NCBI RefSeq assembly: GCF_000293805.1
Contig: NZ_AMBZ01000003.1
Span: 248,001 to 312,000 of the forward strand
Source: Paenibacillus alvei DSM 29
GTDB lineage: Bacteria; Bacillota; Bacilli; Paenibacillales; Paenibacillaceae
Direction of reading: 5' to 3'
Length of the DNA stretch: 64,000 nucleotides
Below the pieces are notes generated by a model. It was given only the letters and a program-made list of their open reading frames with translations. It was not told the DNA's origin and did no database searches. The translations under genes were made by a program, and so were the position numbers. Shown in pieces: positions 48,511 through 51,700 of this stretch; position 1 is the stretch's first letter; each line of letters opens with the position of its first letter.

Positions 48511-48670
48511 TGCTTATATGTAAAAAACATATATTAAGATTCGATAGGATAGGACAAAACGTATAGCTAAGCAATCGAAATTAACCAAATTTAAGAGCTT
48601 ATGTGAATATGGACACATACTCATTAACAATGTAATATGAATGTGAATAAACAACATGGGGAGTGTCATC

Positions 48671-49456
48671 ATGAAGAAGTATTTTGTAATATTTTTAATG
48701 GCTGCATTAGCTGTAGTGACTGTAGTATCTATGCCAATGCAGACATCTGCAGCTACTGATTACAGAGGGGGAATATTGGACGGAGTCGGTCTTTATTTAG
48801 CCTCAGATGCAACAAAGCCAGGAACACTAGTAACAGAGGTCACTGATAACAATGAATCTACAACAGTAACAATGTCGGGTTGGAATGTTGGGACTAATCA
48901 AGATCATATTGTTAAATCGTTCTCGGAGCCGGTTACAGTAACTTCGTTAAGAGTTAGTGCAACTAAAGCTATTAGTGTAGGATTTTACGATAAAAGTGGC
49001 ACTTACATTAAAGTGAATGGTCAAGATCTGTTAGAAATTCCTGCTGAACAAGCAGATGGAAGACTAATCGAAATTCCTGAAACAAGCGGAATTTATAAGG
49101 TGTTTCTATTTAATGGATTGAAAGAATCTTTAGATGTCAGGGAATTTAATCTCTATAACAATTCTCAAGAACCAGAACCCACACCGGATCCTAAGCCAGA
49201 ACCTACGCCTGAATCAGGGGATAGAGCAATCTTAGTGGTCACTATGATCACAGGTTTAGAAAAAGAATTTGATCTGAGCATGGATGAGGTAAATGCATTC
49301 ATCACATGGTACGAAAACAAACAAGCTGGATCGGGAACTGCATCCTATGCTATTGACAAGCACAACAATAACAAAGGACCATTCAGCGCACGTAAAGACT
49401 ACGTTATCTTTGATAAGATCTTAACGTTCGAAGTAAATGAATATAAGACTAAATAA
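48671..49456 (+). CDS. Secreted two-domain protein with PT-rich linker
   Basis: About 261 residues. The ATG at 48671 opens a signal peptide (KKYFVIFLMAALAVVTVVSM, cleaved after TSAA). A beta-sandwich-like domain (residues 35-165) with DNNESTTVTMSGWNVG is joined by EPTPDPKPEPTPE to a C-terminal domain VVTMITGLEKEFDLSMDEVN, then AFITWYENKQAGSGTASYAI and DKHNNNKGPFSARKDYVIFD. From memory, that last domain recurs at the ends of many Bacillus/Paenibacillus exported proteins (xxGLEKEYDLSMxEVNxFxxWYxxxxAGxGxxxYxI) without known function. Its terminator is split by an insertion sequence. Confidence 0.7.
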   Translation: MKKYFVIFLMAALAVVTVVSMPMQTSAATDYRGGILDGVGLYLASDATKPGTLVTEVTDNNESTTVTMSGWNVGTNQDHIVKSFSEPVTVTSLRVSATKAISVGFYDKSGTYIKVNGQDLLEIPAEQADGRLIEIPETSGIYKVFLFNGLKESLDVREFNLYNNSQEPEPTPDPKPEPTPESGDRAILVVTMITGLEKEFDLSMDEVNAFITWYENKQAGSGTASYAIDKHNNNKGPFSARKDYVIFDKILTFEVNEYKTK

Positions 49457-49488
49457 TTTTAAAGCCGCTCCTAGTGGTCATAACTCTG

Positions 49489-50300
49489 TCAAGTAGACAA
49501 GAATAAAAAATATGCTGCGACCGTTTCTCGGTATTCCACCGGGGAACGGTCGTTTAGTTTCTTCTGAAAGCGTTCATGGTTGTAGAACGAAACGTATTCA
49601 TGGATAACTTGTTCCAAGTCAGAGATCGATCGTAGATTGGTTAGATATATTTTTTCGGTTTTCAGATGTGAAAAAAACGATTCGATGCAGGCATTGTCAA
49701 AGCAGTTTCCACGTCGAGAATGGCTACCAACGATCCCAAGCTTTGTGAGTATACAGTTAAACGGCTTTGAGGTGTACTGGAACCCTTGGTCAGAATGCAG
49801 AAGAGCACCGGTAAGATTTGTTTTCTCGCTGAGGATGTCCACTGTCTTCGTAACAAGTGAGAGATCGTTTCGTTCGGACAGATGCCAAGCCACAACCTCG
49901 TTGTTGTATAGATCCTGGATTACGGAGAGATATACAAAACGATCTCCCACACGAATGTATGTAATATCAGTGACCAGCTTGCGCAGCGGCGCTTCTGCAT
50001 GGAACTTGCGATCCAGCCGATTGGGATGAACAACAGACGCCTGCTTGCCGAAATAGCGCCGCCATTTCTTCTTCTACGCTTGTGAACTTGATCTTCGGTT
50101 GTCCTTTACGAAAGGCTTTTTGCTTAAATGGTTGGCCTTCCTGATACCGCTTCAACCATACTTCTACCTGTGTCTTATTTCGAATCCTAAGTTGTTTGGC
50201 CACCTCTTATGTACGACATATTCCCCTCGGTTACCAGTTTAACTGCTTGCATTTTTAATTCTTCAGGATATCTGTTATTCGTACGGCCCCGTTCTCCCAT
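49489..50300 (-). pseudogene. IS3-family transposase, orfA/orfB remnant
   Basis: OrfA begins at an ATG at 50300 (MGERGRTNNRYPEELKMQAV) and shifts frame near 50215 into VAKQLRIRNKTQVEVWLKRY, the helix-turn-helix. After FTSVEEEMAALFRQAGV a deletion joins it to the catalytic half of OrfB: LRKLVTDITYIRVGDRFVYL (first D), LLHSDQGFQYTS (second D) and NCFDNACIESFFSHLKTEKI (E). The DDE triad is complete but the N-terminal half of OrfB is missing, so the element cannot move on its own. Confidence 0.85.
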
Positions 50301-50368
50301 GAAAAAATCCCCTCCGGTCGATAACGATTTAAGTCCATCTTAACAGATGTCTTTTTTACGTTGTCTAC
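49493..50368 (-). mobile_element. IS3-family (IS150-like) element with internal deletion
   Basis: The ends share the inverted repeat GTAGACAA...AAAAAA: left at 49493-49500 followed by GAATAAAAAA, right (read from the other strand) at 50368-50361 followed by CGTAAAAAA. About 876 bases long, roughly two thirds the usual size. It inserted into the loop of a terminator hairpin. Target duplication could not be defined. Confidence 0.75.
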
Positions 50369-50450
50369 CATGAGGGGATATTACCACTATGGGCGGCTTT
50401 TTATTTTAACCTTACTCTATAGCCACTCTAAGGGGCGGCATTATCAGATC

Positions 50451-50768
50451 TTAGTGAATTGGATAAACAGGACCCTCGTAAGTTACACCCCACCAATCAC
50501 CGGCTCCATCTTTATACGAGATGACAACCGTAATTTTGAGGTTACCAGCGTACTTACCATCATCGTAGTGATATGTCGATGGGATGGATGCTCTCGTAGG
50601 GTAATATTTCTTGTTATATGCCCATACGACTCGTTCGGTACGTTGGGCTGTATAATCTTCTTTTGCAGAGTTTGGCGCTGTGGGGGGCGGGGCTGCACCT
50701 ACTGTTGGTGTGAGCGAGCCGACTAACAAAACACCTGACAACACGAATGACCATAATTTGTAATTCAC
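50451..50768 (-). CDS. Small secreted hypothetical protein
   Basis: About 105 residues. AGGAGATA lies 6 bases before the GTG at 50768, which gives a signal peptide (NYKLWSFVLSGVLLVGSL, cleaved after VGA). The mature part is proline-rich at first (APPPTAPNSAKEDYTAQRTE) and then beta-rich with YNKKYYPTRASIPSTYHYDD and GDWWGVTYEGPVYPIH. The tail resembles small secreted proteins of the antimicrobial or killing-factor type, but I do not recognise a family. Confidence 0.6.
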   Translation of the reverse strand: MNYKLWSFVLSGVLLVGSLTPTVGAAPPPTAPNSAKEDYTAQRTERVVWAYNKKYYPTRASIPSTYHYDDGKYAGNLKITVVISYKDGAGDWWGVTYEGPVYPIH

Positions 50769-50919
50769 GACTATCTCCTTCCTTATTTGGTATATTAAAT
50801 CATATAATATCCATATGTATCGGAATGAAATATATGCTGATACGGCGGTGTTTTGAATGCTCGGGGATTTTATAAAAACAGATGGGCAAAGGGAGAAAGG
50901 AATTTCTTCAAAAGAACCT

Positions 50920-50966
50920 CGACAAACCGTTCCCCAGTGGAATACCGAGAAACGGCCTGCAGCGTA
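50920..50966 (+). mobile_element. Relic of the 3' end of an IS3-type transposase gene
   Basis: CGACAAACCGTTCCCCAGTG, then GAATACCGAGAAACGG and CCTGCAG match the end of OrfB in the neighbouring element read from the other strand (ACCGTTCCCCGGTGGAATAC, then CGAGAAACGGTCGCAG). Encodes the equivalent of SPVEYRETVAA. Orientation is opposite to the element at 49493-50368. Confidence 0.7.
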
Positions 50967-50998
50967 AGATTTCCTTTTCATACTTGATAGGGGGATGG

Positions 50999-51700
50999 TC
51001 ATTTTAGTTTTTCATTTAAAGATAAATTTACAGCTTCAACAGCATGTATATAGGTTGTGTCAAATACAGGAACCTTGGAATCCTCCGGTTTTACCAGCAA
51101 TCCAATTTCTGTACATCCTAGAATGATTCCTTCAGCGCCCATTTTAATTAATCCATGGATCACTCGTTTATAATAATCCCTTGATTCCTGATGAATCTTG
51201 CCCAAACATAATTCCTCGTAAATAATCTTATTGATATGTTCTCTCTCCGTGGCATGGGGTACAATAACCTTTATTCCATTCAGCTCCAAGCGGGCTTTAT
51301 AAAAATCCTGCTCCATCGTGTATTTGGTGCCAAGTAGCCCGACAGTTCGAAGCCCGTTTTCTTTAATTCTGCTTGCCGTTGCGTCTGCTATATGTACAAT
51401 GGGGATATTGATTTTGGATTGGATATTATCGATAACTTTGTGCATCGTATTCGTACAAATAATGATAAAATCAGCCCCTCCTTTTTCTAAAGAACGAGCA
51501 GCGTTAGCTAGTACAGCCCCGGCTTTTTCCCAATTTCCTTCTGACTGGTACTGTTCAATCTCCTCAAAGTCGACACTATACAAAAGGCATTTTGCTGAAT
51601 GCAGCCCTCCCCGTTTTCTTTTTACCTCTTCATTAATGACCCGATAATATTCAACCGAGGATTCCCAACTCATTCCGCCAAGCAAACCAATTACTTTCAT
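50999..51700 (-). CDS. Aspartate/glutamate racemase family protein
   Basis: About 233 residues. MKVIGLLGGMSWESSVEYYR is the family N-terminus, followed by GADFIIICTNTMHKV (catalytic cysteine with CTNT motif) and AEGIILGCTEIGLLV (second catalytic cysteine in GCTE). The enzyme interconverts L- and D-aspartate or glutamate; YgeA- and RacX-type members also use other amino acids. Single gene; a remnant of another copy lies 2.5 kb away at 48439-48510. D-amino acids are used in cell wall or in spore germination control. Confidence 0.9.
   Translation of the reverse strand: MKVIGLLGGMSWESSVEYYRVINEEVKRKRGGLHSAKCLLYSVDFEEIEQYQSEGNWEKAGAVLANAARSLEKGGADFIIICTNTMHKVIDNIQSKINIPIVHIADATASRIKENGLRTVGLLGTKYTMEQDFYKARLELNGIKVIVPHATEREHINKIIYEELCLGKIHQESRDYYKRVIHGLIKMGAEGIILGCTEIGLLVKPEDSKVPVFDTTYIHAVEAVNLSLNEKLK

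Follow-up and report, generated by a model that had tools for sequence, protein, structure and literature searches.

Probable targeting of intrinsic terminators by a Bacillales group of IS3 elements, with a deletion derivative in a terminator loop of Paenibacillus alvei

The window analyzed here is a stretch of 64,000 nucleotides from Paenibacillus alvei DSM 29 (contig NZ_AMBZ01000003.1, positions 248,001 to 312,000), and all coordinates below are window positions. The locus begins with a gene for a secreted-protein-like product of 266 amino acids (48656-49456, plus strand), taken from the list of open reading frames, for which a Pfam search of the window protein gave no match. Homologues were found in 72 of the 197 genomes searched, and it is the C-terminal part of the protein (approximately residues 170-266) that is shared by many proteins, and a genome often encodes several of them. 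Downstream lies an insertion sequence, and to the right of it a convergent open reading frame (50451-51002, minus strand), the conserved part of which ends near 50765; protein matches to this right-hand gene were obtained in four other genomes (G010, G014, G015, and G018) of 118 searched. An Asp/Glu racemase-like gene follows at 50999-51700 on the minus strand.

The insertion sequence occupies 49475-50386, with its transposase on the minus strand. These ends were set by BLAST breakpoints common to many relatives (query 36 and 947, corresponding to window 49475 and 50386), at which the matches in relatives mostly end, and the end alignment agrees. The ends read TGGTCATAACTCTGTCAAGTAGACA... and ...TGTCTACCATGAGGGGATATTACCA, and the terminal inverted repeats cover 49475-49499 on the transposase 3' side and 50362-50386 on the 5' side. 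In the IS3 family, the two frames orfA and orfB are bounded by imperfect inverted repeats with TG...CA termini, the target is duplicated over a few base pairs, and a DDE transposase works through a circular intermediate. The TGGT...ACCA termini of the element group seen in the end alignment are as in this family. The initial annotation had called an IS3-type element at 49461-50400; the family holds and the coordinates had to be corrected to 49475-50386. The family assignment comes from the transposase remnant at 49489-49950 (minus strand), the catalytic part of OrfB with the rve domain (Pfam rve_2, 3.6e-15; rve, 4.7e-14), which scores 161.5 bits with the NCBIfam model transpos_IS3 against a cut-off of 160 and thus is a DDE (rve-type) transposase of IS3 type. 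The element is 912 bp long, and 33 of 44 two-ended copies have 1,274-1,314 bp. As the best match, in genome G176, is split, with approximately 370 bp more at window position 50060, the window copy carries an internal deletion and should be inactive, a dead deletion derivative of an IS3-family insertion sequence as judged from its sequence. The two-frame organization is found by frame content in the full-length relative L120, which has an orfA-like frame (33.3 bits) and an orfB in two frames of 158.9 and 117.1 bits, each alone below the whole-protein cut-off of 160.

Two complementary stretches flanking the element had been noticed in the initial annotation, and their 18-position match had been interpreted as one split terminator. 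Both stretches are present, and the interpretation stands for the host-derived part of the match, 49461-49474 and 50387-50402. It does not stand for the four paired bases TGGT/ACCA, which belong to the terminal inverted repeat of the insertion sequence because the element ends are fixed at 49475 and 50386. The host-derived part comprises the left terminator arm AAAGCCGCTC (49461-49470, plus strand), the left copy of a target duplication CTA (49471-49473) with an extra G next to it at 49474, the right copy of CTA (50387-50389), and the right arm with the start of a T-run, GGGCGGCTTTTT (50391-50402, plus strand), as assigned from the sequence and the fold of the joined site; for the duplication, 3-bp junction matches in the whole set of copies also exceed those in mispaired controls. 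With the duplicated CTA counted once and the extra G dropped, the joined site is AAAGCCGCTC-CTAT-GGGCGGCTTT, a hairpin of 10 pairs (one of them G-U) with a 4-base loop and T's after it. The duplex energy of the arms is -19.0 kcal/mol, and among 44 candidate right flanks the left arm's own partner ranks first, both beyond chance. At the level of sequence, this confirms that the element landed in the apical loop of the predicted intrinsic terminator of the upstream gene, and that a 3-bp duplication was made. The extra base between duplication and left end recurs in 4 of 44 copies (0.72 expected), and is perhaps a carry-over from the circle junction.

Two trivial explanations have to be weighed at this point. 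The arms could be an extension of the terminal inverted repeats and thus element rather than host DNA, as the window match continues unbroken into TGGT/ACCA; this deserves hardly any credence, since the flanks vary between copies, the matches in relatives mostly stop at the two element ends, and an empty site described below has the arms without the element. Alternatively, the match could be a coincidence at the window locus alone. An energy of -18 kcal/mol or better is reached by 2.8% of random non-ORF positions (n=2,880), and the window copy is without an orthologous empty site, both of which speak for coincidence. We nevertheless consider it very improbable, since the same arrangement recurs in 26 of 44 copies, and similar, uninterrupted terminators follow homologues of the upstream gene, for example L040 and L042.

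An intact terminator in a relative without the element had been the first check proposed. It succeeded for another copy, L011 in genome G053, and for the window copy homologous empty sites were found, not a strictly orthologous empty locus. The left flank of L011 was searched in 59 genomes, of which 23 matched, G053 included, and in all nine relative loci fetched the site is an uninterrupted terminator in which both arms enclose a loop of four bases (GAGCCGCTAAATAGCGGC, GAGCCGCTAATCAGCGGC or GAGCCGCTATATAGCGGC, then T's). The right flank of L011 aligns to these loci, with modest scores of 27-48, at an offset of -3 (eight loci) or -4 (one locus), that is, with a 3- or 4-base overlap. Homologues of the window's upstream gene were inspected by eye at 25 loci: an uninterrupted hairpin follows soon after the stop codon in 20 of them (weak in L239; in L040 it reads GACCGCTCC-TGTTT-GGGGCGGTTTTTT), and L237, L241, L041, and L242 have no hairpin there. 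In the remaining homologue, L037 (G014 contig 7), the hairpin region just after the gene holds, at the contig end, a left end from this element group, which looks like a parallel hit. Three of the four genomes that match the right-hand gene offered the candidate empty sites L217, L218, and L219, which were rejected, as the terminator at the end of that gene corresponds to a second, degenerate hairpin near window position 50419 instead of the split one; L218 was also dismissed as an orthologous empty locus, its left neighbor (a complete frame) being a different gene. The flanks of the copies in G055 and G079 each matched 5 of 59 genomes, counting the one of origin, and the loci checked contained no clear empty site.

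The initial annotation had further proposed a comparison of other copies and had suggested that some insertion sequences prefer terminator hairpins; the comparison supports this for the present group. Two-ended copies were collected from relatives' genomes and by a pattern scan of named genomes (at least 120 stretches), and the main set, consisting of the window, the relatives' loci, and the first 80 named loci, contains 44 distinct two-ended copies among the matches listed. One-ended copies, ends less than 40 bp from a locus edge, and repeats of identical 15+15 flanking bases were left out of the counts. A terminator-like hairpin was defined by at least 7 pairs, at least 4 of them G-C, one mismatch, a loop of 3-16 bases, and an A- or T-run at the foot. 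By this fixed rule, 26 of the 44 copies among the matches listed are inserted within a terminator-like hairpin; the rule was drafted after the flanks had been seen, and the sole set unseen beforehand is a later one from the other 40 scanned stretches, in which 3 of 7 two-ended copies satisfy it (binomial p 0.012 against 7.6%). Under the same rule, 52 of 864 random non-ORF positions lie in such a hairpin, and the background among random non-coding positions is 6-8%. Eighteen of the 44 copies in the main set and four of the seven in the later set fail the rule. A recognizable target duplication goes along with the hairpin, which is present in 21 of 25 copies with and in 5 of 19 without a duplication; an exact 3-bp duplication occurs in 21 of 44 copies (0.86 expected), and four more have it after one extra base. 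The run at the foot of the 26 hairpins is a T-run only in 7, an A-run only in 4, and both in 15. Named copies inside terminators by the rule come from Paenibacillus, Brevibacillus, Aneurinibacillus, Bacillus, and Peribacillus, among the matches listed. The other two-ended copy in the genome of the window, L002, is 459 bp long and does not satisfy the strict hairpin rule; its arms pair with -16.3 kcal/mol, and its partner ranks 2 of 44. In the MITE-like copy L017 (G014 contig 51), 237 bp lie between both ends with almost no interior, and the flanks are unpaired.

Could these numbers reflect survival rather than targeting? The element might insert widely, with only those copies surviving that reached harmless places such as gene ends. 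Indeed, all evidence comes from surviving copies, and most flanks with a near gene have genes that end towards the element on both sides: on the left, 54 flanks have a nearest gene that ends towards the element, 20 have one that points away, and 29 have none within 200 bp, and the corresponding counts on the right are 22, 9, and 11. In agreement with this symmetry and with the mixed runs at the foot of the hairpins, the element showed no preferred orientation with respect to the terminator. However, of 576 non-ORF positions at most 80 bp to the right of a long open reading frame, only 44 fall into a terminator-like hairpin, as compared with 26 of 44 insertions, and both cuts lie in the loop in 17 of the 26 hairpins, whereas a uniform position would give 4.0. 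Copies of IS256-type elements, which underwent the same kind of selection, satisfy the rule in 1 of 16 cases (Fisher p 0.00027 versus 26/44); this control uses 16 of 20 fetched copies, four of the six from G012 being omitted as they lie in larger duplications, and at least one retained copy (L349) has blurred boundaries. Pairing energy alone does not separate the two element types, as -15 kcal/mol or less is reached by 5 of 16 IS256-type and 24 of 44 IS3-group copies, which is not significant (Fisher p 0.15, rank test p 0.19), because some of the IS256-type copies also sit in palindromes. The loop position and the comparisons with random positions and IS256-type copies make pure survival in safe sites an unlikely explanation. 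We therefore return to targeting: from the sequences compared, IS3 elements of this Bacillales group probably insert preferentially at intrinsic terminators, and the window holds a dead copy in a terminator loop with 3 bp duplicated. Terminators may be preferred because they are safe sites, as the initial annotation had it.

Terminators could be targeted through a sequence pattern of the duplex, an A-run, approximately 10 bp of G+C-richer DNA, and a T-run, rather than through the hairpin. Such a pattern is visible in the composition, which is positioned relative to the element: in 123 left and 55 right flanks, A accounts for 52-60% of the bases between -16 and -11 and T for 47-60% between +11 and +15, with C around -8/-9 and G around +8. 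In several long hairpins, moreover, the cut is off the apex; the offset ranges from -6 to +11.5, lies within 3 bases in 17 of 26 hairpins, and is often several bases in those with longer arms. Against a pure duplex pattern, the arms pair copy by copy beyond what composition would give, with a mean of -15.4 kcal/mol for the own partner versus -9.4 for the partners of other copies, a difference attained in 0 of 20,000 permutations (in the later set, 12 of 20,000 permutations were equally good), and cuts in the loop are more frequent than a uniform position predicts. We regard the duplex pattern as a real possibility, but one well short of probable. As positioned composition and partner-specific pairing are both present, either a hairpin or a duplex of particular shape could be what is recognized. 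Our preferred model is that the transposase complex would recognize the terminator by structure or shape and not by one constant sequence, as a palindrome flanked by an A-run and a T-run that is possibly extruded as a hairpin, and that the element would then insert in the loop, split the arms, and duplicate 3 bp.

The element group also carries hairpins of its own at both ends. Near the left end of the window copy, a terminator-like hairpin with a T-rich run on the plus strand lies inside the last OrfB codons (49517-49553; found by pattern scan and covariation, fold -28 kcal/mol, z -6.17). In the aligned copies this hairpin is long, and in most of them a T-rich run follows it on the strand read from the upstream gene. 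Over 34 left ends, pairing holds for 93.2% of cells, both partners have changed in 11 of 16 pairs, and the covariation score reaches 0.612 compared with 0.267 for shuffled and at most 0.168 for slid versions; these 34 were selected by eye from 72, passing over near duplicates, copies that were truncated, and right ends that had been assigned wrongly, which favors a clean alignment. At the other end, on the minus strand, the repeat arm ATCCCCTC forms a stem with GAGGGGAT, after which come U's and the ATG (50307-50379; fold -31.2 kcal/mol, z -4.32). The motif, in which the terminal repeat ATCCCCT pairs with AGGGGAT ahead of U's and a start codon, is present in 30 of the 41 different right ends compared (at least one of which is really a left end assigned wrongly), and the right-end hairpin of L120 folds with -41.9 kcal/mol (z -6.66). 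In other insertion sequences, hairpins hide the start of the transposase gene from outside transcripts. By their sequences, the hairpins at both ends of the present elements may stop transcripts that pass the broken host terminator, and ending incoming transcripts in this way would repair the loss caused by the split, so that an insertion costs little. We tentatively propose, as an idea that falls a little short of an even chance, that this Bacillales IS3 clade as a whole combines a structure-recognizing transposase and loop insertion with an inward-facing terminator at each end, of which one, kept by covariation, lies in the last orfB codons, and would be self-insulating and terminator-swapping.

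Several mobile elements with related habits are known, and the comparison with them relies on excerpts of the respective papers. The IS3-family elements IS1397, ISKpn1, and ISPsy8 insert in REP palindromes (PMC1525189), and the group studied here resembles them in family and in having an intergenic palindrome as target. Unlike in their case, where one repeated REP family is hit, the targets here are unrelated intrinsic terminators of differing sequence: the insertions are within palindromes, but a repeated host palindrome family is not seen, as the flanking arms differ between copies even within one genome (L113 versus L121; L098, L164, and L168). Group IIC introns target a DNA motif of intrinsic terminators and are described as inserting after it (PMC4424553). 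The target is thus shared, but these introns are retroelements with a ribozyme that insert after the motif, whereas our element encodes, by the family models, an IS3-type DDE transposase rather than a reverse transcriptase with a ribozyme, and its relatives insert mostly in the loop. IS1272 transposes by replacing inverted repeats, and its target is a potential stem-loop of no fixed sequence (PMC5678879), as in the present group; there, the stem-loop is lost and no duplication arises, whereas here both arms are kept and 3 bp are duplicated. By its description, the IS1447 subgroup shares the IS3 family, the occurrence in Firmicutes, and duplications of 3-4 bp (PMC6211511); the text available from that source does not mention a terminator preference. 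Excerpts of PMC6211511, PMC9208149, PMC5771124, and PMC7290912 contain no report of a terminator-preferring IS3 element, nor was one found in the open literature among the matches listed; prior notice elsewhere is possible. Terminators as landing pads would explain how insertion sequences spread through compact genomes with little harm, and would make the group an accessible example of structure-guided target choice by a DDE transposase. As its copies split host terminators, they may also alter the read-through between neighboring genes.

Solitary end fragments of the element group without adjoining transposase coding are common in relatives (L300, L303-L306, L308-L318, and L263-L274). We considered a selective retention of the left-end hairpin in decayed copies and rejected it. 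In two fragment sets hand-picked from the short matches listed, transposase coding is absent beside 29 of 44 left-end fragments (11 have it, 4 are at edges) and beside 22 of 23 right-end fragments (1 at an edge); as the right-end fragments are likewise without coding, the retention is not specific to the hairpin. A second left-end remnant of the group, with its hairpin, lies in the window at 50907-50997 (minus strand). It adjoins the end of the Asp/Glu racemase-like gene, right behind its stop codon, and by its sequence and position may serve as the terminator of this gene. Among the IS256-type elements of the control, the one in genome G021 has all three copies (L366, L367, and L368) in similar palindromes with CCCTATTCG/GAATAGGGC-like ends, and looks like another palindrome-targeting insertion sequence.
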